A stretch of DNA of 64,000 bases from an uncultured Opitutaceae bacterium (GTDB lineage Bacteria > Verrucomicrobiota > Verrucomicrobiia > Opitutales > Opitutaceae). A model generated the notes under the pieces. That model had not been told where the DNA came from. It did no database searches and saw nothing but the letters and a program-made list of their open reading frames with translations. This document shows, piece after piece, positions 49,242 through 64,000 of the stretch (position 1 is its first letter; each line of letters opens with the position of its first letter). A program made the translations under genes and the position numbers. The stretch lies in NCBI GenBank assembly GCA_937902925.1, contig CALFNN010000011.1:1-64000 (forward strand), given 5' to 3'.

Positions 49242-50420
49242 TCAACCGGCCGGCAGCGTGATGAAAAACTCGGCCCCCGCGCCCGGCGAGCTCTCGACCC
49301 GCACCTCGCCGCCGTGCGCCTGGATGACGTTCTTCACGATCGCGAGGCCGAGGCCCGTGCCGCCCTGTTCCCGCGAGCGCGCCTTGTCGACCCGGTAGAA
49401 CCGCTCGAAAATCCTCGCCTTCGCCTCGGCCGGGATGCCGGGCCCGTCGTCGCGCAGGATCAGCTCGACGCGCCCGCCGTCGAGCGACCGGCCGTTGACC
49501 ACCACGTGCCCCTCGGCCCGGCCGTATTTGATCGCGTTGTCCACGAGGTTCGCGAGCACCTGGCGCAACCGCTCCGGATCGGCCTTGGCCGCGAGACCGG
49601 TGGGCACCGAGTTGTCGAGCCGCACGCCGCGCGCGCGCGCCACGATGGCGAAATCGTCGAGGACATCCTGCACCGACGCCCGCAGCGGCACCGGCTCCAA
49701 ATGCAGCTCGACCCGGTCGGAGTCGAGCCGCGCCAGCAGCAGCAGGTCGTCGATCAGCAGCGTCAGCCGGTTGGCATGCTTGTCGATGATCTCGAGGAAG
49801 CGCGACGCCACCGCCGGATCGTTCTTCCCGCCGTCCATGAGCGTCTCCGCCGCGCTCTTGATCAGCGACAGCGGCGTCCGCAACTCGTGACTGACATTGG
49901 CAACGAACTCCTGCCGCACGGCCTCGAGCTGCCGCAGCCGCGTGAGGTCGTGAAACACGAGGATCGCGCCGTCGCGCGCCCCGTCGGCGGCGCGCAGCGC
50001 CAGGGCGTTGATCTGGAGATATCGCGTGGCCGAGACGCCATCCAGCCGGAGTTCGTGGCTCAACACCTCCGGCTCGGTGTCGAGCCGGGTCACCAGCGCC
50101 GCCACCTCGTGATGCCGCGTCGCCTCGAGCATCGTGCGGCCCGTCGCCGGCGGCGTGAACCCGAACAGGTCGCCCGCCGCGCGATTCGCCAGGCGGATGC
50201 GGCCGGTGGGGTCGACGACGATCACGCCCTCCACCATCCGGTCGAACAGGGCGGCGGTGCGCTGCACCTGGGCGCGGACCTCGGCCTCCCGCTGGAGCCG
50301 CTGGTCGGCCAGCTCCCGCGCGTGGCGTTCGCCCACGGCGCGGTATTGCGCGCGAAACGACCACGCCATCAATCCCGCGACCGCAAGGAGGACGAGCAGG
50401 AAGAGTTCGAGCACGTTCAT
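49242..50420 (-). CDS. phoR: phosphate-sensing histidine kinase PhoR
   Basis: 392 aa from the ATG at 50420. One N-terminal membrane helix (3-20) with no large periplasmic loop, then a PAS domain (about 60-165; V-I-V-V-D-P-T-G-R-I-R-L-A-N), HisKA with F-V-A-N-V-S-H-E-L-R-T-P-L, and HATPase_c with L-V-D-N-A-I-K-Y, D-D-G-P-G-I-P and G-T-G-L-G-L-A-I. This is the PhoR/WalK-type layout. The last gene of the pst-pho cluster, it would sense Pi status through PstSCAB-PhoU and phosphorylate PhoB. The short gap to phoB (64 bp) holds no promoter I can see. Confidence 0.9.
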   Translation of the reverse strand: MNVLELFLLVLLAVAGLMAWSFRAQYRAVGERHARELADQRLQREAEVRAQVQRTAALFDRMVEGVIVVDPTGRIRLANRAAGDLFGFTPPATGRTMLEATRHHEVAALVTRLDTEPEVLSHELRLDGVSATRYLQINALALRAADGARDGAILVFHDLTRLRQLEAVRQEFVANVSHELRTPLSLIKSAAETLMDGGKNDPAVASRFLEIIDKHANRLTLLIDDLLLLARLDSDRVELHLEPVPLRASVQDVLDDFAIVARARGVRLDNSVPTGLAAKADPERLRQVLANLVDNAIKYGRAEGHVVVNGRSLDGGRVELILRDDGPGIPAEAKARIFERFYRVDKARSREQGGTGLGLAIVKNVIQAHGGEVRVESSPGAGAEFFITLPAG

Positions 50421-50484: not shown

Positions 50485-51174
50485 TCATGGCGTGTCCGCC
50501 GTGAAGCGATAGCCGACGCCCCGGATCGTCTCGAGGAAACGGGCCGCGTCGCCCAGCTTCTCGCGCAGCCGGCGCATGTGCGTGTCCACCGTGCGGCTGT
50601 CGATCGGGTTTTCGTAGCCCCAGACATCCTGGAGGAGGCGTTCCCGCGTCTGAACGCGCCCCCGGCGGCGGGCAAGGAGCTCGAGCAGGTTGAATTCGGT
50701 CGCCGTGAGCGTGATGGGCTGGCCGTCGATCGTCACCTCGTGGCGCGGCACGTCGATCTCGAGCTCGCCGAAACGGACGTGGGCCACGGTCTCGTCGGCC
50801 GTCTTCGCGCGGGCCAGGAGTTTCTTGATGCGCAGGACCAGCTCGCGCGGGCTGAAGGGTTTGGTGACGTAGTCATCGGCCCCCAGCTCGAGGCCGAGCA
50901 CCCGGTCCATCTCCGCGGCGCGCGCCGTTAGCATGAGAATGGGGATCATCGAGGTCGCGGCATCGCGCCGGAGAATCTTGCACACCTCGAGGCCGTCGAC
51001 CTCGGGCAGCATCAGATCGAGGACGATCAGCGCCGGCCGTTCGTCGCGCGCGACTCCAATGGCGCGGGCGCCATCCTTGGCGAAGATCGGCGCGTAGCCC
51101 GCTTCCTTCAGTTTGAAGCCGAGCACCTCGAGGGCATCGGGCTCGTCGTCGACGACCAGGATCTTAGGTTTCAT
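50485..51174 (-). CDS. phoB: phosphate regulon response regulator PhoB
   Basis: 229 aa. Receiver 1-120 with D9/D10 and phospho-acceptor D53 in I-V-L-D-L-M-L-P, T-A-R and K-P-F; OmpR-type winged helix 135-225 ending R-G-V-G-Y-R-F. It overlaps phoU by 11 nt and would bind the Pho-box repeats upstream of the porin gene. Confidence 0.94.
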   Translation of the reverse strand: MKPKILVVDDEPDALEVLGFKLKEAGYAPIFAKDGARAIGVARDERPALIVLDLMLPEVDGLEVCKILRRDAATSMIPILMLTARAAEMDRVLGLELGADDYVTKPFSPRELVLRIKKLLARAKTADETVAHVRFGELEIDVPRHEVTIDGQPITLTATEFNLLELLARRRGRVQTRERLLQDVWGYENPIDSRTVDTHMRRLREKLGDAARFLETIRGVGYRFTADTP

Positions 51175-51829
51175 TCGGTGTCTGCCCGGCGTGGCGGATA
51201 TCCTTTGCCTCGTAGAGGTAAACGACCTCCTCGGCGACGTTGGTGGCGTGATCGGCGATTCGTTCGAGGCTTTTCGAGATGACCATGAGGTGCAGGCAGC
51301 GGGAGATCGTCGTCGGGCGCTCGACCATGTAGCTCGACAGTTCGCGATGCAGCTGGCGGTTCAGGTCGTCCACGTCCTTGTCGCGCGGCACGACGGCGCG
51401 GGCCTTCTCCGGTTCGCGGTTGATGAATGCGCCGATGGCGTCGCGCAGCATCTCCAGCGACATCGCCGCCATGCGGGGCAGGTCGACGTAGGGTTTGAGC
51501 TGCGGCTCGGTGTTCAGGTCGATCGCCCGCCGGGAGATGGTGACCGCCTCGTCGCCCACGCGCTCGAGATTCTGGGAGATTTTCATCGCCACCGTGATGA
51601 GGCGGAGGTCGGTGGCCAGCGGCGCCTTCGTGAGCAACTGCAAGGACGTGTCGTCGATCTCGATTTCGAACTGGTCGAGGACGTTGTCGTCGTCCTGCAC
51701 CTGGCGGGCCAGGTCGTCGTTGCGCTCCACCAGGGCCCGCATCGCGCGGGTGACGGCGGACTCCGCCCGGCTGGCCATCGCGAGGAGGCTTTCCTTGAGC
51801 TTGGTGAGTTCGGTGTCGTAGTGGGTCAT
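51164..51829 (-). CDS. phoU: phosphate signalling protein PhoU
   Basis: 221 aa with two PhoU three-helix repeats (about 15-105 and 120-210). E/D-x3-D metal motifs are visible, such as L-E-R-V-G-D-E-A and L-E-R-I-A-D-H-A-T-N. PhoU joins PstSCAB to PhoR and keeps the regulon off when phosphate is plentiful. The gene begins 13 bp after pstB and overlaps phoB. Confidence 0.95.
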   Translation of the reverse strand: MTHYDTELTKLKESLLAMASRAESAVTRAMRALVERNDDLARQVQDDDNVLDQFEIEIDDTSLQLLTKAPLATDLRLITVAMKISQNLERVGDEAVTISRRAIDLNTEPQLKPYVDLPRMAAMSLEMLRDAIGAFINREPEKARAVVPRDKDVDDLNRQLHRELSSYMVERPTTISRCLHLMVISKSLERIADHATNVAEEVVYLYEAKDIRHAGQTPNET

Positions 51830-51842
51830 GGCGGGGGGCGGC

Positions 51843-52697
51843 TCAACCGAAGCGTCCGGAGACGTAGGCCTCCGTCTGCGGGTTGGCGGGGTTCGTGAAG
51901 ATTTCGCGGGTGGCGGCGTATTCGATCAGCTTGCCCATGTAGAAAAACGCCGTCCGGTCCGAGCACCGTGCCGCCTGCTGCATGTTGTGCGTCACGATGA
52001 CGACCGTGAAGCGCTCGCGCAGCAACTGGATGAGTTCCTCGATCTTGGCGGTCGCGATGGGATCGAGCGCCGAGCACGGCTCGTCCATGAGCAGGACCTC
52101 GGGTTGCACCGCCAGGGCCCGCGCGATGCACAACCGCTGCTGCTGGCCGCCGGAAAGACTCGTGCCCGGACGGTTCAACACGTCCTTCACCTCGTCCCAC
52201 AGCGCGGACATGCGCAGCGATTCCTCGAGACGTTCCTGCAGGAAGGCGCGGTCGCGCACGCCGTTGAGCCGCAGGCCGACGAGGACGTTCTCCTCGATCG
52301 ACATGGTCGGAAACGGATTGGACTTCTGGAACACCATGCCGACCCGCCGGCGCACGTAGGCCGGGTCGATGCCGGACGCGTAGAGGTCGTCGCCGAAAAG
52401 CCGCAGCGAACCGACGATGCGGGTGCCCGGCGTCAGCTCATGCATGCGGTTGAGCGCGCGCAGGCAGGTGGATTTGCCGCAGCCGCTCGGCCCGATGATG
52501 GCCGTGACCTGGCGCGCGGGGATGCGAATGGACACGTCATACAACGCCTGCCGCGAGCCATACCAGAGCGAGAAACCCTGGATGTCGAAGGCGGGCAGGT
52601 CATCGACCGGGACGGCGGGCGGCGGCTTGCTGGCCGGCGCGGACGGACGAACGGTGGAGGCGGAGGAGGACACGGGAAGGGGGGCGGTTTGGACCAT
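51843..52697 (-). CDS. pstB: phosphate ABC transporter ATP-binding protein
   Basis: 284 aa from the ATG at 52697. After a Ser/Pro-rich N-terminal extension (1-35) come Walker [11 protein letters not shown]-loop V-F-Q-K-S-N-P-F-P, signature L-S-G-G-Q-Q-Q-R and Walker B L-L-M-D-E-P. Ends with F-T-N-P[14 protein letters not shown] as is usual for PstB. ATP hydrolysis drives phosphate import through PstCA. Confidence 0.96.
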
Positions 52698-52710
52698 GAA
52701 GCGGGAGGAA

Positions 52711-53586
52711 TCAGGAAGCGGCGGATTTGCCGCGCGAAAGGACGCGCACAAAAATATTCAGCCCGAGGATGAGCAGCATGAGCACCAACGCCCCCGCCCA
52801 GGCCTGGCGGTGCCAGTCGTCGTAGGGCGAGATCGAATAGGAGAAAATCTGCAAGGGCAGGGCCGCGATGGGCTGTCCGAGATTGCGGTTCCAAAAACTG
52901 TTGCCCAGCGCGGTGAACAGGAGCGGCGCCGTCTCGCCGGCGACGCGAGCCAGCGCCACGAGCACGCCGGTGACGATGCCCTTGAGGGCGGTCTTGACGA
53001 CAATGACCGTGATGATTTTCCACCGCGCGATGCCGAGCGCGAGCCCCGCCTCGCGGTAGCTCTGCGGCACGAGGATGAGCACTTCCTCCGTCGTCCGCAT
53101 CACGAGTGGCACCATCATCAGGCCGAGGGCGACACCGCCGGCGTAGGCCGAGAACGTCTTGAACGGGATGACGAGCAGCGCGTAGACGACCATGCCCCAG
53201 ACGATCGAGGGCACGCCGTTCAGCACGTCGGCGGCGAACCGGATCCAGTTGTTCACGCGGTCGGAGCCGTATTCGGACAGATAGACGCCGCCCATCACGC
53301 CGATCGGCACGCCAATCAGCGCCGCCATGCCCAGCAGTTCCAATGTTCCGACAATGGCGTTCGCCATCCCTCCGCCGACTTCACCGGTCGGCTTGGGTAA
53401 CTGGGTAAAAAAGTTCCAGTCCAGCGCCGAGGCGCCCTCGCGCAGGAGGAAATAGATGACGAGAAACAACGGGGCCATCACGACGACCGCGCACGCGCCC
53501 ATCAGCATCGTCATGCCGCGGCTGGCCCAGCGGCGCCGAAGCGCAAGGCCGGGACTGGGCAGGCAATTGATCGCGGCGGCGTTCAT
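52711..53586 (-). CDS. pstA: phosphate ABC transporter permease PstA
   Basis: 291 aa, six membrane helices. The ATPase-coupling loop [13 protein letters not shown] and the PstA-type [12 protein letters not shown] segment are present. Forms the channel with PstC; its start lies 4 bp after the pstC stop. Confidence 0.95.
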
Positions 53587-53589
53587 CAG

Positions 53590-54561
53590 TTACATGACTT
53601 TCCCCGAGCCGGGACCGGCGAGCGTCCGCAGCATCAGCTGGGCGATCGCATTGATGACGATGGTCAGGGCCACCAGCACGAGACCGAGTTCGAAGAGGGC
53701 GCTGAGATAAACATCGGTAGTGGCCTCGGTGAACTCGTTGGCCACGACACTGGCGAGGGTGTAGCCGGGCGCGAACAAGGAAGCGCTGATGTCGGGTCGA
53801 TTGCCGATCACCATCGTGACCGCCATTGTTTCCCCGAGCGCCCGCCCGAGCCCGAGCACCGCCGCGCCGAAGAGGCCCCGACGCGCATAACTGAGGACGG
53901 CGATGCGAATGACTTCCCAGTGGGTCGCCCCGAGCGCATAGGCGGCCTCGCGTTGGAGGTTCGGCACGGAACGCAGAATCTCCCGCGAGACCGACGTGAT
54001 GATCGGCAGGATCATGATGGCCACCACGACGCCGGCCGCCAGCATGCTGGGGCCGTAGATCGGGCCCTTGAACAGCGGCAGGAAGCCAAGCGTGTGCTTG
54101 AACCATTGAAACACATGGTCGCGCAGCCACGGCACGAGCACGAACACGCCCCACAACCCGAAGATCACGCTCGGCACCGCCGCGAGCATCTCGATCACCG
54201 TGATGACGGGCTGGCGCATCCGCACCGGTGCCATCTCGGTCAAAAAGAGCGCGGTCGCCACCCCGAGCGGCACCGCGATGAGCAGGGCGATCACCGACGA
54301 AACGAGCGTGCCGAAGATGAACGGCAGCGCGCCGTATTTGTCGGTCACCGGATTCCAGTCCGAGCTGCCCAAAAAACCGACGCCGAATTTTTTCACCGCC
54401 AGCGCCGCGCCGGCATACAATTCCCATCCAACGAGCACGATCAGCGCCACGATGCTGAGCGCCGCCAGCAACGCCAGCCACCGGAACGACCGGTCGGGCC
54501 AGCGGGGCGACACCGGCAGGATGCCGGCGCCGGGTGTGGTGGGGCGCGGAAGCGGGCTCAT
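53590..54561 (-). CDS. pstC: phosphate ABC transporter permease PstC
   Basis: 323 aa, six membrane helices. E-M-L-A-A-V-P-S-V-I-F-G-L-W-G and the EAA loop E-A-A-Y-A-L-G-A-T-H-W-E-V are clear. A longer N-terminal loop than PstA (P-x-x-D-K-Y-G region) is typical for PstC. The hairpin in front of the start codon may lower its translation or transcription relative to pstS. Confidence 0.95.
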   Translation of the reverse strand: MSPLPRPTTPGAGILPVSPRWPDRSFRWLALLAALSIVALIVLVGWELYAGAALAVKKFGVGFLGSSDWNPVTDKYGALPFIFGTLVSSVIALLIAVPLGVATALFLTEMAPVRMRQPVITVIEMLAAVPSVIFGLWGVFVLVPWLRDHVFQWFKHTLGFLPLFKGPIYGPSMLAAGVVVAIMILPIITSVSREILRSVPNLQREAAYALGATHWEVIRIAVLSYARRGLFGAAVLGLGRALGETMAVTMVIGNRPDISASLFAPGYTLASVVANEFTEATTDVYLSALFELGLVLVALTIVINAIAQLMLRTLAGPGSGKVM

Positions 54562-54633: not shown

Positions 54634-55638
54634 TTAGTATTTGATTTCACCGATCCGCTTGAGGACGCGCGCCTGCACGTTCTCCGGCAGTGGCGCGTAA
54701 TCGAGCGACGAGGCCATCTTTTCGCCATCGGTATAAGCCCATTTGAGAAACTCGACGAGTTTCTTGCCCTTCGCGGCATCCTTCTGCTGGGCGTAGACCA
54801 GCAGCCAGGTCGTGCCCGCGATGGGATACGCCTCAGGCCCGGGCGGGTTGACCATCGAGAAGCGGAAGTCATCGGGAATCTTCGCCGTCGCGAGCGCGGC
54901 GGTGACCGAATCAATCGAAGGCGAGATATAATTGCCCGACGAGTTTTTCATATCGGCGTAGGGCAGCTTGTTCTGCTTGGCGTAAGCCAGTTCGATATAA
55001 CCCATCGCGCCCGGGGCCTGCTTGATCTGGCCGGAAACGCCTTCGTTACCCTTGCCGCCGAGGCCGACAGGCCACTCGACCGAGGTATTTTTGCCGACCT
55101 TCGAAGCCCACTCCGGACTAACGGAGCTTAGATAGTCCGTGAAGATGTAGGTCGTGCCGCTGCCGTCGGAGCGGTGCACGACAATGATGTCCTGATTGGG
55201 CAGACTCACACCCTTGTTCTGGCCCGCGATGCGGGGATCGTTCCAATTCGTGATCTTGCCGAGAAAAACGTCGGCAACCGTCGGGCCGTCGAGCTTCAGC
55301 TTCGGATTGCCGGGAAGGTTGTAGCTGATCACGTCCGCGCCGGCGACCGTCGGAATATGCCAGAGGGCCCGCGGCGCCTTGGCGAGGTTCTCGTCGGACA
55401 TCGGACCATCGGACGCGCCGAAATCCACGGTCTCGGAAAGAATCTGCTTCTGGCCGCCGCCGGAGCCGATCGACTGGTAGTTGAACCGGACACTGGGATC
55501 CACTTTCGCATACTCGTTGAACCACTTCGAATAAATCGGAAACGGAAACGTGGCGCCGGCGCCGTTGATCAGCATCTGGGCCGAGGCGATGGTCGCGGTG
55601 AAGGCCGCGAGTCCGAGGAGGAGGAGGAGTTTTTTCAT
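54634..55638 (-). CDS. pstS: phosphate ABC transporter substrate-binding protein
   Basis: 334 aa with a signal peptide (ending A-S-A-Q). Phosphate-site motifs I-N-G-A-G-A-T-F-P-F-P near 24-34, G-S-G-G-G, D-F-G-A-S-D-G-P and R-S-D-G-S-G-T-T are present. Binds phosphate in the periplasm for PstCAB. It follows the porin by 29 bp and is the second gene of the operon. Confidence 0.96.
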   Translation of the reverse strand: MKKLLLLLGLAAFTATIASAQMLINGAGATFPFPIYSKWFNEYAKVDPSVRFNYQSIGSGGGQKQILSETVDFGASDGPMSDENLAKAPRALWHIPTVAGADVISYNLPGNPKLKLDGPTVADVFLGKITNWNDPRIAGQNKGVSLPNQDIIVVHRSDGSGTTYIFTDYLSSVSPEWASKVGKNTSVEWPVGLGGKGNEGVSGQIKQAPGAMGYIELAYAKQNKLPYADMKNSSGNYISPSIDSVTAALATAKIPDDFRFSMVNPPGPEAYPIAGTTWLLVYAQQKDAAKGKKLVEFLKWAYTDGEKMASSLDYAPLPENVQARVLKRIGEIKY

Positions 55639-55667: not shown

Positions 55668-56903
55668 TTAAAAGTTGATCTGCATCTGGCTGCGGACGCC
55701 GTCGCTGGTCGCCTTGGCGGCGCCACCGGTCACGGTGTCCTTGGTCTCGGCGTGGATGTAGCCGAGTTGGAGTTTGGTGTCGTTCCCGTGCCAGTAATAG
55801 TTACCGCCAACGAACCACTCCGACAGTTTGTCCATCGTGCCGCCGGAAGGCGCCGAGCGCACGCCGTCGCCAAGGTCGACGCCGCGGCCGTCCGAATCGA
55901 TGTAGCTGTAACGCAGGACGCCCTCGAGATTGCCGATCCGGTAGCAGGGCATCAGATAATAGCCCCACGAATCCGCGTCGCGGGTCGCGGACGCGCCGTG
56001 GTCGTTCTGGCTCCACATATATTCACCGCGCAGGAACAGCCCGCCGCTCTGCAACTCGCCATAGACGCCGTAGACCGTGAGATCGTCGCCGGCGCCGACC
56101 ACCTTGCCGCCCTGATCGGGCAGGACGCCGATCGACGCGCCGATCCGGTAGTTGCCGCCGTCGAACTTGTCCGCGTAACCGAGGTTGCCCCAGTAGGCCA
56201 AGGTGTTGGACCCCTTGTTGCCCGCGCTGGCCACGCCCGTGAAGGATTCGTCGCGCTCGGGGTCGGTGACCGCGAAGTTGTAGAAGACGCCGTTCTGCGT
56301 GCCGCCGGCGTAGACACCGACGCGATAACTGCCGGCGCCCAGACGCCGGCCGTTGTTGCTCTCGACAAAATACCGCGTCGTCGGCGAGCGCTCGATCGCC
56401 CGGATGTCGGAGCTGGTGTAGAACTCGTCCCAAACAAACGGCACCTTTTTGAGCCCGACATCGATCGCGAGGGCGTCGCTTTGTTTCCACGTGACGAACG
56501 CCGCATCGAACGTCGAGCCCGCGAAGTCGTAATTGAAGGTGCCCGACCAGTTGTCGGTCAGGTCGGCCTTGAAGCCCCAGTAGATCCGGCGAAGGAAGAA
56601 GTGATTCGTGTCCGGGGGCTGGGCGGCGGCGCCGTTGATATCGGTGCCGAGGCCGGCATATTGAATCTGGAGCCGCCCGGAAACCGTGAGCTTTTTCAAG
56701 GCCTTGATCCCGGAGGTGGACACGTCCTGCGCCACCTGGGCGTTCTTGACCTCGTTGCTGATCTGCACCGCTTCGTCGGTGGTAAGGATGCCCTTCTTGA
56801 CCAGGGCATCGATGAGGGCCTTGCTGTCTTGTGCGAAGACACCTCCGGCCGTGAGGGTGGCGCCAGCGAGCAGCGCGACACATTTGGATTTCAGGTTAAG
56901 CAT
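55668..56903 (-). CDS. phosphate-selective porin O/P-type outer-membrane protein
   Basis: 411 aa. Signal peptide (ending V-F-A-Q), then a short helical, coiled-coil-like N-terminal region (about 25-60; L-V-K-K-G-I-L-T-T-D-E-A-V-Q) as in other OprO/P-like proteins. The rest is a porin barrel of alternating strands: V-S-G-R-L-Q-I-Q-Y-A-G, R-R-I-Y-W-G-F-K-A and aromatic girdles, ending with Phe (M-Q-I-N-F). It would let phosphate or polyphosphate across the outer membrane. The first gene of the pst-pho cluster and directly behind a Pho-box-like array. Confidence 0.9.
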   Translation of the reverse strand: MLNLKSKCVALLAGATLTAGGVFAQDSKALIDALVKKGILTTDEAVQISNEVKNAQVAQDVSTSGIKALKKLTVSGRLQIQYAGLGTDINGAAAQPPDTNHFFLRRIYWGFKADLTDNWSGTFNYDFAGSTFDAAFVTWKQSDALAIDVGLKKVPFVWDEFYTSSDIRAIERSPTTRYFVESNNGRRLGAGSYRVGVYAGGTQNGVFYNFAVTDPERDESFTGVASAGNKGSNTLAYWGNLGYADKFDGGNYRIGASIGVLPDQGGKVVGAGDDLTVYGVYGELQSGGLFLRGEYMWSQNDHGASATRDADSWGYYLMPCYRIGNLEGVLRYSYIDSDGRGVDLGDGVRSAPSGGTMDKLSEWFVGGNYYWHGNDTKLQLGYIHAETKDTVTGGAAKATSDGVRSQMQINF

Positions 56904-56959
56904 GGTAGTTGCGTTTTTGTGGTATGGATCTGAACCGGGCCGCATAGTGGTGCCGGATT

Positions 56960-56988
56960 GTTACGAACAGATGACGGTCGCGTTACAA
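56960..56988 (-). promoter_or_regulatory. Pho-box-like array of three 11-bp-spaced repeats
   Basis: On the minus strand TTGTAAC (56982-56988), CCGTCAT (56971-56977) and TCGTAAC (56960-56966) are spaced exactly 11 bp, the spacing of PhoB half-sites (CTGTCAT-like plus 4 bp). The array is 57 bp upstream of the porin start, with a possible -10 TATGCG about 14 bp after it. It probably controls porin-pstSCAB-phoUBR. Confidence 0.7.
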
Positions 56989-57075
56989 ACGGGCAAAAGC
57001 GCCCCAAGGCGGGATGTCGCGTCGCGGAATCCCCGCGGGCTTGCGGCCTGTGGCCCTGAAGCCGACTCTGGTTCC

Positions 57076-60000
57076 CTACGGTCCCGGAGATGTCTCGCTG
57101 GAATCTCCGCCGCCGTAACCCAGAACCTCCACCGTAATGAGCGACGGGATCAGCTCCGGCTGCGCCTGCCCCTGCGCCTGCCGGGCGGCCTCGGCCGCCG
57201 CGCTGCTGGCCGCGGCGCCCGCTGACGACGCGACTGCCGCGAGACTGCCCACACTCGCCGCCACCGGCGCCGGCGTGCCGACGCTCGCGCCACTCACCTG
57301 GATATTGGCGGCATTCACGACTTGCAGCGCGGAGATGTTCAGGTTGCCCGACACGCGGATGCCCGCATCGCCGGCGTCGATGGTGCCCACCGGTGCAACC
57401 AAATCGACGTCGCCCGGTTTCACGCCGGCGACCGTCGCCAGCACGCCGATGCCGCCACCCGTGGCGAGTCCGGCGAGGTCGGTTTTGACGTCGGCGCTCT
57501 GCGGATCGATCAACACGCGGGTCGGCGGCGCGGACTGGATGGTCTTGGACGATGCCCCGGCCGCGATGTTGCCCTGGGACGACCAGATGACCTCGTCGCC
57601 GCCGCGCAACGTAAAGATGCGCGAGGTGCCCACGATCACGCTGTCCCGGGTGAAGATCGAAATGTTGCCGCCATCCTCGGTCAGGATGCCCTGGTCGACC
57701 GGCTGGCTGCCGGCGACGTCAAAGCCCACGGTGAGCAATCCGCCCGGCGCAAGCAGGCTGATGTCGCCGCCGCTGGCCGTCTTGATTTCACGCGACGTGA
57801 GCGAGATGTCGCCCGTCCACTTGTCGCCGGGGAACAGCGTCGCGATCGCCGCATAACCGTTGTCGTAGTTGCGGAAGCCGGGACTCGACGGCACGCCGTG
57901 ATCGCGACCCGCATCGCGCAGCACGAGGTGGAATATATCGAGGGCCAGCGCATCGCGCCGCTCGGCCGGCAACCGGCTGAAGGCTGTCCACACCTCCCCG
58001 TTGCTCCCGCCCTCGAAGCCGAGCAGCGCTCCGAGCTCGGGCAGGTAGCGGTCCGCCTGCGCGCCGGCGGTTGCCGGATCGAGGAACTTCGCGATGAAGT
58101 CCGCGAAATCGAGCTGGCTGGCAGCGAGGCTCGATGACACGCCGATTCCCGCCGCGGCGATCACGCTCGCCCCGCCGAACGGCAGGTTCGGGTTGCGACC
58201 GTTGCCAATGCTGGTGATCCCGACTGCCGTGCCATCGCCGGCTCCGGGGCCGACGCCCAGATCGAAGTTGCGCCCGGCGAGGACCTCAAGGGTGCCCGGC
58301 CCGCTGATCTGGATGTCGCCCGCGGTCGGGTTGCCGGTCGCGGGGCCCGGGAGCGTCGAGCTGCTGGCCAGCAATTCGTTGCGGGCGGCTTGGGCGGCCA
58401 CCCGCAGCGGCGAATTCAGATCGTAAGCGACGAGATCGCGGCCGGCGGCGACAACGCTCACGTCGTCCGCGCGGTTGTTCTGGAGATAGAGGGCGATGTC
58501 GGTGATGTCGCGGCCGGCGGTCACCCGCGCCGCTTTCGCCGAGAAAAACGTGAGCCCGGAAATGCTGCCGCCCACGGCGTAGAGCCGGGCCGGAGTGAGG
58601 TCGGCGAGATGCAGCGGACCGGCCGCATGCAGCGCCTGCTTGGTCTGGCTGACGCCGAAGATGCCCGCCGTCGAACCGGACTCGTCGAACAGGCCGTTCA
58701 GCGAATCCAGCAGATCGATCGGGGTGACGGTCGGCGCGAGCGCCGCGACCGACGACAAGGACAGCGGCGAAAGGGCGCCCGGAATCCGGCGCGGGTCGGC
58801 ATCCGACAGGATGATCTCGCTCGAACCCCACAGGCTGTCGCCGTTGGTCGGATTGACGCCGTTGACCTGCAGGCCGTTGATCGACTTCGCCGCGGCGAAC
58901 TCGATCGTGCCCTGCGCCGACGGCGACAACGTGAGACGGCCCACCGCGTTGAGGTCGCCGGAAAACGCGGTGGCGCGAAGCGTCGCCGGCATCAGCGCGT
59001 CCGCGGTGAAGAACGGCGTGATATCCGTCTCGAGCAGGCGCAGCCACGGCTGCGAATACGAGGAGAACGTCTGGTGGTGCGCCGGGTCGTAGAGCTGCAC
59101 GTTTTGCAGCCACGCCGAGAGCGAGCCGTCGCCGCCGTCGGTGCTGTCCCGCAGCGTCAGCGTGCCGGTGAGCGAGGAGACGTTGACCGCATCGGTCGCG
59201 GCGTAGGTCGAAAAATACGTTTTCTCGAACGGGTTGTTGTTCACGCCCTGCGGCAGCAGGAACGGATTGGCCACCGGCCCGAGCAGCAGGTCGCCGCGCG
59301 CGCTGACATCGAAGCCGCCCTTGCCAAGGAACAGCGTCGTCGGCAGCCACGTCGTGGGATCGGGAGCGATCCGCTGGTTGTCGAACGCAATGACGTCCGA
59401 CTGCTTGAGGGCCGCACGCGTGCTGTTGGTATGAATGCTTCCCCCCGCCGACAGCGTGCCGTGACCGCGCTCGACATAGTAAACGCCGCCATCGATATCC
59501 GCACCCGCCCGCACAACGAGATCCCCGCCGCCGAGCTCGAGGAGTTTCGACGCGTCGGGCGCGCCCGCGGGCGCACGGGCATTGGTCGGCACCACGGCGT
59601 CGACATTCGACACGTTGTGACCGGCGAGCAGCGTCACGTTGCCCCCGCCGAGCGCGCCCACGCCCTCGAAGAAATTGCTGAAGTCCACCCACCACGAGGT
59701 CGACGCGATCTCCCCGCCGGCATGCGTCGCGCCGAACTGCCCGGTCGCCGGGTCGATGTCGCCCCGGCGGTAAAGCCAGTTGTCCGGCAGCTCCCTCGAC
59801 GAGTCGGCAATCAGCGTGGTGAACGAATCGTCCAGCCGCTCGTGGACGATGTCGTGCTGCGCCATGATGCTCACGTTGCCGCCCGCCAGGCTGTATTGCG
59901 CCGGATAAATCGGATCCTGGGTCGGGCCGAGTTTGCTGTTGCGCACCGGCTCCGCGAGATTCGGCAGGTCGAAATTCGCCAGCGCGGCGGCCTGGGTGCC

Positions 60001-63000
60001 GGCGGTGTAAATCGTCGCGAGCGGATTCAGCAACTGCACATCGCGGGCCGCGGCGATGTCGATGTCGCCCGTCCCCGTGCGGATCGTCTGATAATAGTTC
60101 GGGATGATGTTTTGCCGGAGATTGGACGTGCTGTTCGGGCTGTTCGGGTTGCTCGGCAGCGTGATCGGCGGTGCGTTGCGACCGAGGACCAGCGAGCCGG
60201 AGCCCGCGGCAAGACCCGCCGCCGGTTTGACGCGGCGGAAATCGGCGGCGGTAAAATCCGCGCCGGCCACGAGGCGATACGACCACGACTGGCTGCCGGG
60301 CGCGAGCAGCGGCATGTCCCACAGCCCGTAGCTCGACACGCCGCCAAACCCGTCGCTCAACGAGCCGATCGACGCGACGCGCGTCTTCGGGTCGAAACTG
60401 TAGTCGAAGTTCAGATTGCCCGCCGCGCGCAGGGTGAGCACGCCGGGCTCGGCCTGCCCCGGGCCGAACCGGAACGTCGAAAGATCCCACGCGTCGGCGA
60501 GCGTGAGATCGCCGAAGGGATTGACGATCTCCGCACCGGGCCGCACGTGCACGGCCGGCGCGAGGCCCGCGTTGTTCGCCAGCAGCCGGCTGGAAATCGC
60601 GGCGGAGCTGCCGGCGAAGGCCGTGCCGTCGGCCATCACTTCATCCTCGACCGCGCCGGTGATGAGCGCCTCCCCGGGCGTCCCGAGATCGAAAACCTTG
60701 AAGCCTTCCACCACGACCCCGGACGCACCCACGATGCTGCCGTTGAGCGGCGCGATCTGGACGTCGGTGCTCGTGGGATTCTGCGGCGCACGCAAATGGA
60801 GCGTGCCCGTGACGTCGCCCAGGGCCGCGCTGCCCGCCGAATTGCTCGCGACCGAAAGATCGATCGTCGCGCCGGTCTGCACATCGATCGTCCCGCCGGC
60901 GTTGCCGCGAGTCTCGAGCGAGACGGCGCCGCCCTTGCCCGCATCGTTGAAATCCTGCGCCGCGACCGTGAGCCGCGCGCCGGCCTGCAGGGTCACATTG
61001 CCACCCGCCGCGAGGGCAATGGTGCCGCCTTGCGCACCCGAGGCGTCGATCACGCCGCCCGCCGTGACCGTGATGCTGCCCTGGTCGGCGGAGAGGTTGA
61101 ACATCTGCGCGGTGGCCAACCCGTCGACCAGGGCGTCGCCCGCGCGAACGCGCATCGAGCGCGAGAGCGTGAAGCCGCCGGCGTTGAGCGACGTGTTCAA
61201 CGCATTCAGGCTTCCGCCGGCCACGCGGCCGACATCGAGCGAAAACGCCCCGCCCTGCCCCAGCAAGGTTGCCGCGGTCGTGAACTCGCCGGCCGGTGCC
61301 GACACGGAGACCGCCCCGGCCTTGGCGTCACCCGACAGCGCCGCCACCGTGAGCGTGCTGCCGGCCGCGAGGTTCACGGAACCGCCATCCGCGGTGAGCG
61401 AGAGCTGTCCGCCATCGGTGTATTTCGTGAGGTCATAGAACGTTTGGGCGGTGCCGCCCACGTCGAGGCGGCTGCCGCTGGCAATCGACAGATCGCCCCC
61501 CGTCGCATGCAAGGTGAGCGCTCCACTCGGCAGCACGATGTTGTCGGCGGCCAAAATGTTGGCGCCGGCGAGCGTCAGGCTCGCACCCAGGCCCGGGGTC
61601 ACCGTTGTCGCCGAGGAGGCCCCCGCGAGCGTGAGCGTCCCACCGGCCGTGACCGCCTGGCTCGAGGCCGTCGCGCCGGTGATCAACGGCGCCGTCACGG
61701 CCAGGTTGCCCTGCACCGCGAGTCCGCCGGTCTTTTGTCCGAGCACGCCACCGGTCGCGCTGATCGCCACGCCCGCGAACTGGTCGATGGCCAGTTGATT
61801 GGCCCCAAGCTGCACCGTGCCGGCGTGGAAGGTCAGCGAACCGCCGGTCGCACCAGCCGCACCCGGCACGCTGCCCCCCGCGAAGTTGTCGAGGAGGATA
61901 TTCCGGGCGGCGAAACTGACCGCGCCTCCACCCGTGTTGAACCCGCGGATCTCGCCCGCATGCAACGCGAGGCTGGCGAGCGTGGGTTGTCCGCCGTCAT
62001 CGAGGGCGCCGATTGCCCCCGTTCCGTAGATGTCGATCGACGAATAGCTCAGCAACGAGAGCGATTGGGCGCTCTGCAATCCCAGCAACGCCGCGCCGGA
62101 GAGCGCCAGCCCGCTCGACACCGGCACGCTGCCGGCAGTCGCAAGCTCCAGCGTGATTTGTCCGCTGTCGAGCGCGATGGCGTTCCCGCCGATCGTCGCG
62201 CTCGCACTGAGGGTCGTCGAATGCGTCGAGTCGAGCGTGACGCCCGCGCCGGTGATCCGCGCGCCCGCGCCGATGGTCATCGCCGGCACCGCCGACGCAT
62301 CCACGCCGTTGCGAACCAGCTGGGCCGCCGGGTCGGCCGTCACGCGCAGGAGCGCGCCGTCTCCGCTGCCCGCCGTCGCCGCGTTGCCGAGCACCAGCGT
62401 GTCCGCCGGCGCGACGAGCGTCCCCGTCTGGCTGACCACGGCGCCCGGCGCGAGCGTGAGCGATTGGTTGGCGGCAAGGATAATCTCGGTGCCGGCGAGC
62501 AGCGAACCGGCGTTGTTCACCGTGACATTGTTGGTCTGCACCGCGATCACCGTGCCCTGGCCGGTCGTCGTGCGCTCGCCGCCGACGAGCAGGCTCTCGG
62601 CGCCGAACGAGGTCAGCTCCGACGCATTCAGTCCGAGCGAACCGGCCGGTGCCGTCACTCCCGCGCCGGTGATGAAAATGTCCACGGGACTGCTGATGTC
62701 GACCAGGCCGCCGCGGCCGCCCATGGGCGCCTGCGCCGCGACGGCACCCTGCAGGGTCATCGCCTTGGTCGCGGCCAGCACGAGCTGGCCCGAATCGACC
62801 GGCAGCCGCGGCACCACCGCATCGTGCGCCATCGCGCCCGCGCTGAGAAACGCGTTGGCCAGCGAATCGTCGTATTCCGCCCGGGCGCGCACCACCGACT
62901 GCGGCGCAATTTCGAACGTGGATGCCAGCGGGGTGACGGTGCGGGCGGCGTTGAGGTCGTTGAAACGATAACCTGCCACGACGCTCGATCCATCCGGCAG

Positions 63001-64000
63001 CGTCTGCGCTCCACCCGGTGGCACGCCCGCCTTGGGTGTGACGAGAAACGCGCCCGGCAGCAGCGCATAACGCGCCGGCAGCAACGTGTAGAAACCGGCC
63101 GGCAGACCCGCGACACCGTTCAGGTAAATACGATCCCCGACCGCGAGCGTCGGGTTCACGTAGCCGGCGTCACCGCCGAGATTCGTGTTGAGGGCCGTCG
63201 GGTTGAACGGCGCGAACGGCGCGTAATCCGCCTGATAGCCCGGAATCACCGCGAAGCCGGCGGAGGAAGCGAGGACGTCATTCGTGCCACCGACGCCCGA
63301 GACCCACCGATAGGCGTAAAGATCGCCGCCGCCACGCAGGTCGACCGTCGAGCCGGTCTGCTCGGTCACGCTTTCCGCCGAGATGTGCACGGTCTTTTCC
63401 GGCGCACCGGTCACCGTGATGTCGGTGCTCGTGGGATCGATCCACGAGGTGCCGTTGAGATTCGTGCCATAGGGAATCGTGGTCACGTTGCCCGTCACCG
63501 GGTCGATCGCCGACACCGAGGTGACGCTGCCGGACGCCAGCGTGACTTGGTGCGTGACGGGAACACTCAGGTTCGAAACCAGATCCCTCGGCGCCGTGCC
63601 TGTGCCATCCCAGCCCAGGTTGATCGCGCCCACCGGCGCGCGCAGCACGCCGCCCTGGGTGATCGTCGACGCATAAAGGTTCAGCTCACCACCCGCGGAC
63701 AGCGGCAACGGCCGGATGCCGGACCCGGCGATCGTGATCGAGCCGGGCCGCGTGACACCGCCCGAGACAAAATCTTCAGCCGCAAGGGTGAAGCTCACCG
63801 CACTCGGCGGGTAGATCGCGCCCGCGCGCAGCGTCAGGTCGCCCACCATGTCGAACGTGCCGTCGCCGCGGATGTCGCCGTTGTCGGCCGCCAGCGTGGC
63901 CTTGCCGATGTTCTGGAGCGAGAGGCTGCCGACATCGATCAGAGTCGCCGCGACGCTGAGACTGCCCGCGCCAAAAGTCGGCGGGGCGTAGAACGGCTGG
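57076..64000 (-). CDS. giant filamentous-haemagglutinin-like exported protein (DUF3739 type), 5' end beyond window
   Basis: About 2308 residues are visible; the frame is open to position 64000, so the N-terminus (signal and probably the two-partner-secretion domain) lies outside. The body is a long beta-helix of Gly/Ala/Thr/Leu-rich repeats such as G-x-L-x-L-x-A. Towards the C-terminus comes the I-S-G-P-G-T-L-E-V-L-A-G-R-N-F-D-L-G block and G-N-G-R-N-P-N-L-P-F-G-G-A-S-V, typical of the DUF3739 region of FhaB-like proteins. No C-terminal autotransporter barrel is seen. It is expected to be a secreted adhesin or surface fibre whose transporter gene is elsewhere. Confidence 0.85.
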   Translation of the reverse strand, partial: QPFYAPPTFGAGSLSVAATLIDVGSLSLQNIGKATLAADNGDIRGDGTFDMVGDLTLRAGAIYPPSAVSFTLAAEDFVSGGVTRPGSITIAGSGIRPLPLSAGGELNLYASTITQGGVLRAPVGAINLGWDGTGTAPRDLVSNLSVPVTHQVTLASGSVTSVSAIDPVTGNVTTIPYGTNLNGTSWIDPTSTDITVTGAPEKTVHISAESVTEQTGSTVDLRGGGDLYAYRWVSGVGGTNDVLASSAGFAVIPGYQADYAPFAPFNPTALNTNLGGDAGYVNPTLAVGDRIYLNGVAGLPAGFYTLLPARYALLPGAFLVTPKAGVPPGGAQTLPDGSSVVAGYRFNDLNAARTVTPLASTFEIAPQSVVRARAEYDDSLANAFLSAGAMAHDAVVPRLPVDSGQLVLAATKAMTLQGAVAAQAPMGGRGGLVDISSPVDIFITGAGVTAPAGSLGLNASELTSFGAESLLVGGERTTTGQGTVIAVQTNNVTVNNAGSLLAGTEIILAANQSLTLAPGAVVSQTGTLVAPADTLVLGNAATAGSGDGALLRVTADPAAQLVRNGVDASAVPAMTIGAGARITGAGVTLDSTHSTTLSASATIGGNAIALDSGQITLELATAGSVPVSSGLALSGAALLGLQSAQSLSLLSYSSIDIYGTGAIGALDDGGQPTLASLALHAGEIRGFNTGGGAVSFAARNILLDNFAGGSVPGAAGATGGSLTFHAGTVQLGANQLAIDQFAGVAISATGGVLGQKTGGLAVQGNLAVTAPLITGATASSQAVTAGGTLTLAGASSATTVTPGLGASLTLAGANILAADNIVLPSGALTLHATGGDLSIASGSRLDVGGTAQTFYDLTKYTDGGQLSLTADGGSVNLAAGSTLTVAALSGDAKAGAVSVSAPAGEFTTAATLLGQGGAFSLDVGRVAGGSLNALNTSLNAGGFTLSRSMRVRAGDALVDGLATAQMFNLSADQGSITVTAGGVIDASGAQGGTIALAAGGNVTLQAGARLTVAAQDFNDAGKGGAVSLETRGNAGGTIDVQTGATIDLSVASNSAGSAALGDVTGTLHLRAPQNPTSTDVQIAPLNGSIVGASGVVVEGFKVFDLGTPGEALITGAVEDEVMADGTAFAGSSAAISSRLLANNAGLAPAVHVRPGAEIVNPFGDLTLADAWDLSTFRFGPGQAEPGVLTLRAAGNLNFDYSFDPKTRVASIGSLSDGFGGVSSYGLWDMPLLAPGSQSWSYRLVAGADFTAADFRRVKPAAGLAAGSGSLVLGRNAPPITLPSNPNSPNSTSNLRQNIIPNYYQTIRTGTGDIDIAAARDVQLLNPLATIYTAGTQAAALANFDLPNLAEPVRNSKLGPTQDPIYPAQYSLAGGNVSIMAQHDIVHERLDDSFTTLIADSSRELPDNWLYRRGDIDPATGQFGATHAGGEIASTSWWVDFSNFFEGVGALGGGNVTLLAGHNVSNVDAVVPTNARAPAGAPDASKLLELGGGDLVVRAGADIDGGVYYVERGHGTLSAGGSIHTNSTRAALKQSDVIAFDNQRIAPDPTTWLPTTLFLGKGGFDVSARGDLLLGPVANPFLLPQGVNNNPFEKTYFSTYAATDAVNVSSLTGTLTLRDSTDGGDGSLSAWLQNVQLYDPAHHQTFSSYSQPWLRLLETDITPFFTADALMPATLRATAFSGDLNAVGRLTLSPSAQGTIEFAAAKSINGLQVNGVNPTNGDSLWGSSEIILSDADPRRIPGALSPLSLSSVAALAPTVTPIDLLDSLNGLFDESGSTAGIFGVSQTKQALHAAGPLHLADLTPARLYAVGGSISGLTFFSAKAARVTAGRDITDIALYLQNNRADDVSVVAAGRDLVAYDLNSPLRVAAQAARNELLASSSTLPGPATGNPTAGDIQISGPGTLEVLAGRNFDLGVGPGAGDGTAVGITSIGNGRNPNLPFGGASVIAAAGIGVSSSLAASQLDFADFIAKFLDPATAGAQADRYLPELGALLGFEGGSNGEVWTAFSRLPAERRDALALDIFHLVLRDAGRDHGVPSSPGFRNYDNGYAAIATLFPGDKWTGDISLTSREIKTASGGDISLLAPGGLLTVGFDVAGSQPVDQGILTEDGGNISIFTRDSVIVGTSRIFTLRGGDEVIWSSQGNIAAGASSKTIQSAPPTRVLIDPQSADVKTDLAGLATGGGIGVLATVAGVKPGDVDLVAPVGTIDAGDAGIRVSGNLNISALQVVNAANIQVSGASVGTPAPVAASVGSLAAVASSAGAAASSAAAEAARQAQGQAQPELIPSLITVEVLGYGGGDSSETSPGP

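Follow-up and report, generated by a model that had tools for sequence, protein, structure and literature searches.

A candidate Pho box of three half-sites at 11-bp steps before the porin-pst-pho genes of an uncultured Opitutaceae bacterium

The window considered here is a stretch of 64,000 nt from an uncultured Opitutaceae bacterium (Verrucomicrobiota; assembly GCA_937902925.1, contig CALFNN010000011.1). On its minus strand, three short direct repeats, GTAAC-6-GTCAT-6-GTAAC, with starts exactly 11 bp apart (56960-56986), precede a porin gene. The array is very probably a multi-half-site Pho box forming the phosphate-starvation promoter of phosphate-uptake genes. An earlier sequence-only reading had proposed such a Pho box, describing three G-T-(A/C)-A-(C/T) units at exact 11-bp spacing upstream of the porin that heads the pst-pho cluster. 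Units, spacing and context were as stated, with all genes on the minus strand. The Pho-box proposal itself gained support from the recurrence of the array at porins of the family with little-conserved flanks, from its presence before other phosphate and lipid-remodelling genes, and from a distance to the -10 hexamer as in E. coli phoA and pstS.

The array and its recurrence

Read 5′ to 3′ on the minus strand, the elements are as follows.

56993..56998, minus strand: distal block TTTTGC, 11 bp (one step) upstream of half-site 1 and probably a fourth, degenerate half-site
56982..56986, minus strand: half-site 1, GTAAC
56971..56975, minus strand: half-site 2, GTCAT
56960..56964, minus strand: half-site 3 (promoter-proximal), GTAAC followed by AA
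56944..56949, minus strand: predicted -10 hexamer CACTAT, its first base 15 nt downstream of the G of half-site 3
56935..56939, minus strand: predicted transcription start region, placed from the -10

The array is separated from the porin start (56903) by a gap of 56 bases. The pattern GTMAY-N6-GTMAY-N6-GTMAY matched once in the window and in 0/100 dinucleotide-preserving shuffles; the density of GTMAY units in the window leads to an expectation of about 0.0017 triples at one spacing. No GTMAY triple was found in the window at any other equal spacing between 6 and 30 bp. The whole genome (6.0 Mb) contained two matches, and the backward-read control none. The span given in the sequence-only reading was correct for the three half-sites and left out the conserved block at 56993-56998 and the -10 hexamer at 56944-56949.

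A porin search in 38 genomes, the own genome and its relatives, yielded a match in 25, in some of them for the N-terminal part only. Each locus was scored at its best place within up to 1.5 kb upstream: 15 of the 28 loci, all in the same family, fitted the pattern in at least 15 of its 16 positions, and the other 13 in 10 to 14. The 15 porin sites align without gaps and were the source of model R1; before porins, the array recurs in many genera of the family. In the aligned sites the three units keep the 11-bp step exactly, and the linkers are loose. Applied to 61 family genomes, R1 produced 41 matches at E<1e-3 (about 0.06 expected) in 38 genomes, 26 of them outside the training set; at E<=1, 53 genomes had a match. 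The next gene was recorded for 38 of the 41 matches (three, in G070, G064 and G059, were left out) and was a porin or porin-like gene in 33 cases, some of these resembling the window porin solely in the N-terminal part. The others were one PstS, one glycosyltransferase operon, one MFS transporter and two unassigned genes. The MFS transporter (L071:507-1709, genome G062) carries a strong Pho-type site 34 bp upstream.

The half-sites were also scored before lipid genes. In the own genome an operon at C11:88046-92164 (L087:4046-8164) is headed by a GT4 glycosyltransferase gene (C11:88046-89197). Further members encode a protein of the monogalactosyldiacylglycerol (MGDG) synthase family, a diacylglycerol kinase and a calcineurin-like phosphoesterase. 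The latter is taken here to be PlcP-like from operon context; its best NCBIfam match, UDP-2,3-diacylglucosamine diphosphatase, was below threshold. The half-site blocks of the 15 porin sites were applied to 30 glycosyltransferase-operon upstreams, the best matches returned as loci. The best score averaged 15.4 at 11/11 spacing, whereas none of 80 other spacing pairs averaged more than 5.3; the opposite strand gave 0.8 and shuffled sequence -7.0. The 99th percentile of shuffles was surpassed by 27 of the 30 upstreams. PlcP and glycosyltransferases are reported to take part in lipid remodelling under phosphorus deficiency, with putative Pho boxes in PlcP gene clusters (PMC4796936). The GT4/MGDG-synthase/diacylglycerol-kinase/PlcP-like operon is predicted to serve phosphate-controlled lipid remodelling.

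Beyond the family, R1 matched at E<=0.01 in 42 of 188 class genomes, where about two chance matches are expected. There were 34 matches outside the family. Among the 17 examined, which are those returned as loci, 12 precede phosphate or lipid genes: four porins, one gene each for a PstC-like, a PstB-like and a PstS-like protein by Pfam domain, two PhoU-phosphatase fusions, one PhoU_div match below cut-off, an MGDG synthase and a phytase-like protein. The remaining five lie before a TonB plug protein, a prepilin-like protein, two near-identical and weakly transposase-like proteins, and in one case no gene. The fusions (L131:396-1487 and L138:391-1482) are single proteins that combine PhoU with a low-molecular-weight phosphotyrosine-phosphatase domain; in both cases the Pho box stands just upstream.

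A second model, R2, was built from 55 sites. It includes chosen glycosyltransferase sites, which makes the E-values of these sites non-independent in the genomes concerned; the glycosyltransferase site of the own genome is not part of it. Among 288 phylum genomes, R2 at E<=0.001 reached 25, of which 20 belong to the family, four lie elsewhere in the class and one outside it. The class and phylum scans used stricter filters, by which weak matches were lost. The sole match outside the class (G358) begins within a few bases of a long reading frame of sensor type; it was not counted as support. Short response regulators that consist of a receiver domain alone also have Pho-like arrays at their start (L188, L191 and L192 in G442, G053 and G178; G442 and G178 belong to one genus).

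Promoter anatomy and known Pho boxes

The consensus (T/C)(T/C)GT(A/C)A(C/T) of the sequence-only reading held in the comparative tests, with slight changes in the version derived here. In 11-bp steps the latter reads (T/C)GT(C/A)AC, CG(T/C)CA(C/T) and (C/T)GTAACA, extended by an upstream T..C block and by a -10 in which position 2 is A and position 6 is T. These two are the best-kept bases of a -10. In the 15 porin sites, picked without regard to the -10, A was found at position 2 in 15/15 and T at position 6 in 14/15; for 39 aligned sites, own site included, the values were 39/39 and 35/39. The 39 sites were placed by fit to the core pattern, so that the invariance of the core is partly built in. 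Most of them came from R1, which includes the -10; two are nearly identical and from one genome (L048, L067), and some share a genus. Columns upstream of -19 and downstream of +52 all hold about 0.35 bits or less. As read from this alignment, with no separate -35 scan, the half-sites appear to occupy the zone of a -35. The longest open reading frame of the porin begins with an ATG at 56945, which overlaps the predicted -10; automatic annotation may therefore set the porin start 14 codons too early.

The distal block is not part of R1 and was therefore not selected for. Among the 39 sites, T at -10 and C at -7 of the alignment are each kept in 38. Glycosyltransferase-operon sites have the T in 22/24 and the C in 20/24; this count used 24 of the 30 loci, L094, L100, L110, L115, L118 and L119 being dropped. 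The block is probably a degenerate fourth half-site. Against this, the half-site score of the 24 glycosyltransferase-operon sites lacks a peak at -11 despite the retained T and C, and z 4 is also passed by the offsets +16, +25 and +35 in the 39 sites. The fourth half-site is for these reasons only a probable reading.

A PHO box has been defined as at least two 11-nt direct repeat units, each of which has about seven conserved bases, the other four being less conserved (PMC4415409). The array consists of three 11-bp units, and the 11/11 spacing was unique in the independent set. Its gene context comprises porins, pst-like genes, phoU, MGDG synthase, a phytase-like gene and the PlcP-like operon. 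Pho boxes with several units in 11-bp steps have been described from several phyla (PMC4415409, PMC1906773). The E. coli Pho box resembles the array in its direct half-sites, the 11-bp step and the GTCA core. The E. coli half-site is given in a review as CTGTCAT, compared with (T/C)GT(C/A)AC here. In addition, half-site 3 is here nearly always GTAACA, and the outermost unit keeps just T and C. Four units at 11-bp steps can be read from the printed sequence of E. coli pstS. Three E. coli K-12 promoters were compared: the -10 of phoA (TATAGT) and of pstS (TATTTT) begins at the distance found here, 15 nt from the G of the last half-site, while phoB breaks this rule. For E. coli Pho promoters the -10 is given as TAN3T at a fixed short distance from the Pho box (PMC1906773); the bases observed here, with CACTAT in the window, agree with this form. 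Structural models support a strict spacing between pho box and core promoter (PMC10294691).

Cyanobacterial SphR Pho boxes share the 11-bp steps and differ in their consensus, CTTAACCT (PMC1906773). The PHO box of Streptomyces PhoP likewise consists of 11-nt direct repeat units of variable number and arrangement, with a different core, GTTCACC (PMC4415409). MtrA boxes of the mycobacterial origin, which bear on the dnaA arrays described below, are direct repeats of GTCAC read by the same regulator family. They differ in that the unit is a 9-bp word, present as two repeats, and in being scattered between DnaA boxes (PMC2945938, PMC4285127), and they belong to another phylum and to genes not related to phosphate. 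A literature search, with most subscription journals outside its coverage, found no published Pho box for a Verrucomicrobi- or Opitut- lineage.

The regulator, the dnaA arrays and rival explanations

The presumed reader of the array is a PhoB-like response regulator encoded in the gene run. TIGR02154, the PhoB equivalog, was its best among 94 NCBIfam models at E<=0.001. It is 45% identical to E. coli PhoB, and the recognition helices are nearly identical (RTVDTHMRRLR in the regulator, RTVDVHIRRLR in E. coli). R193, T194, H198, R200, R201, R203, T217 and R219, which we take to be the DNA-contact residues of E. coli PhoB, are identical in the alignment. The most identical full-length match is a protein of a Verrucomicrobia bacterium (59%); the top PDB match is MtrA.

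Arrays of the same type were found upstream of dnaA. From the dnaA set L197-L226, 25 of 30 loci had enough upstream DNA. Fourteen of these 25 family genomes carry a GT(C/A)AC-type triple on the same strand as dnaA, at a distance of 421-525 bp before the DnaA match starts. All 14 score above the 99.9th percentile of shuffles; four loci pass on the opposite strand. The mean score of the dnaA upstreams was 11.7 at 11/11 and at most 5.3 in 48 other spacing pairs. The -10 and the distal block were looked for in the dnaA arrays and were absent. The own genome has its dnaA array at G000:C103:24376-24415 on the minus strand (L031). This is the second exact genome match (C103:24381), whose reading as chance was overturned by the recurrence of such arrays at dnaA upstreams. 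The dnaA array is not a chance match, and because of this recurrence the C103 site is treated apart from the Pho regulon. An origin of replication at this site was considered and weakened, since the GC skew shows no sign change at dnaA (first 160 kb of the 385-kb contig). It is conceivable, if rather unlikely, that a PhoB-type regulator (PhoB or a close paralogue) also docks about 420-525 bp upstream of dnaA in the family. Such docking would tie synthesis of the replication initiator to nutrient signalling, as MtrA does in mycobacteria. MtrA binds GTCAC repeats at the mycobacterial origin (PMC2945938, PMC4285127); the parallel suggests a test and proves nothing here.

Several observations weigh against the Pho box. 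The arrays before dnaA mean that half-sites alone do not prove phosphate control. The regulator reached 241.7 bits, under the curated TIGR02154 cut-off of 296.2, and is therefore named PhoB-like. PhoB residues reported to touch polymerase are W184, G185, V190 and D192 (PMC3348028); in the regulator W and G are kept, V190 is replaced by I and D192 by S. At E. coli phoB, the hexamer 15 nt away (CGCATT) does not resemble a -10. Just 38 of the 61 family genomes had an R1 match at E<1e-3, and eight had none at E<=1.

The array could instead be read by another OmpR/PhoB-family regulator, e.g. an MtrA-like one, that shares the half-site preference with the PhoB-like protein of the cluster. MtrA boxes are repeats of GTCACAgcg-like words (PMC4285127), MtrA is the top PDB match of the window regulator, and similar arrays stand before dnaA and at the receiver-only regulators of three genomes. 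This explanation is nevertheless improbable: the strongest sites across the class precede porin, pst-like, phoU and lipid genes, the PhoB-like gene sits inside the run controlled by the array, and the dnaA arrays are devoid of -10 and distal block. Repression of the porin operon from the array, in place of activation, is more improbable still, although PhoB acts as a dual regulator in E. coli (PMC10294691). The array lies upstream of the -10 at the distance of two activated E. coli promoters. Repression would also clash with the behaviour of pst genes, whose induction under phosphate shortage is the rule. Since each unit has just five bases, the array could be put down to a chance meeting of short words in GC-rich intergenic DNA; the shuffles, the expectation of 0.0017 and the presence of the array across genera, in relatives whose flanks are poorly conserved, reduce the probability of this to a negligible level.

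The gene run, the predicted regulon and its meaning

The run below the array comprises eight genes.

55668..56903, minus strand: porin, Porin_O_P family (PF07396, E 3e-19)
54634..55638, minus strand: pstS (TIGR00975, 407.4 bits, above the cut-off of 205)
53590..54561, minus strand: pstC-like permease (PF00528 and position in the run)
52711..53586, minus strand: pstA-like permease (PF00528 and position in the run)
51843..52751, minus strand: pstB-like ATPase, approximate start (PF00005 and position in the run)
51164..51829, minus strand: phoU (TIGR02135, 203.8 bits, above the cut-off of 130.25)
50485..51174, minus strand: PhoB-like response regulator, presumed reader of the array (PF00072, PF00486)
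49242..50420, minus strand: PhoR/PnpS-like histidine kinase, start inferred (HisKA, HATPase_c, PAS)

PnpS and TIGR02966, the best NCBIfam matches of the kinase, fall below or deviate from the respective cut-offs. A comparable array within 200 bp upstream was present only at the porin (29.1, compared with at most 2.9 at the other seven genes, the starts of pstB and phoR being approximate); one promoter may thus serve all eight genes. On the far side of the array, an open reading frame of more than 2,250 aa (57076-63999, minus strand) is open at the window end and terminates upstream of the array, without link to it. A 974-aa piece matches DUF3739, of the filamentous-haemagglutinin type.

Scanning the own genome with a repeat matrix had been proposed in the sequence-only reading. 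With R2 the window site ranked first (E 1.7e-10), followed by the lipid operon (8.2e-4), the dnaA upstream (0.0065) and a TonB-dependent receptor (0.02). Eleven further matches, at E 0.25 or worse, were taken as chance. At the -10 distance, the receptor site (G000:C53:19594-19647; gene L196:2646-4985) reads CACGGT. Sites also stand at the start of two relatives of the receptor (71% and 45% identical; G071 and G021), which raises the credit of this match. The predicted regulon comprises porin-pstSCAB-phoU-phoBR and the lipid operon, probably together with the TonB receptor.

The proposed mechanism starts with scarcity of phosphate, upon which the PhoR-like kinase would phosphorylate the PhoB-like regulator, both encoded at the end of the run. 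The regulator would bind the half-sites head to tail and keep RNA polymerase, carrying the main sigma factor, at the weak -10. From a start near 56937, transcription would run through porin-pstSCAB-phoU-phoB-phoR, supplying an outer-membrane channel, a high-affinity pump and further regulator and kinase. The glycolipid/PlcP-like lipid-remodelling operon and probably the TonB receptor would be under the same control.

A comparatively tested Pho-box matrix is thereby available for the lineage, with a distance from Pho box to -10 equal to that at two E. coli promoters. It allows sequence-based prediction of the phosphate regulon in many little-studied bacteria. In these bacteria, phosphate shortage would be tied to the replacement of membrane lipids.
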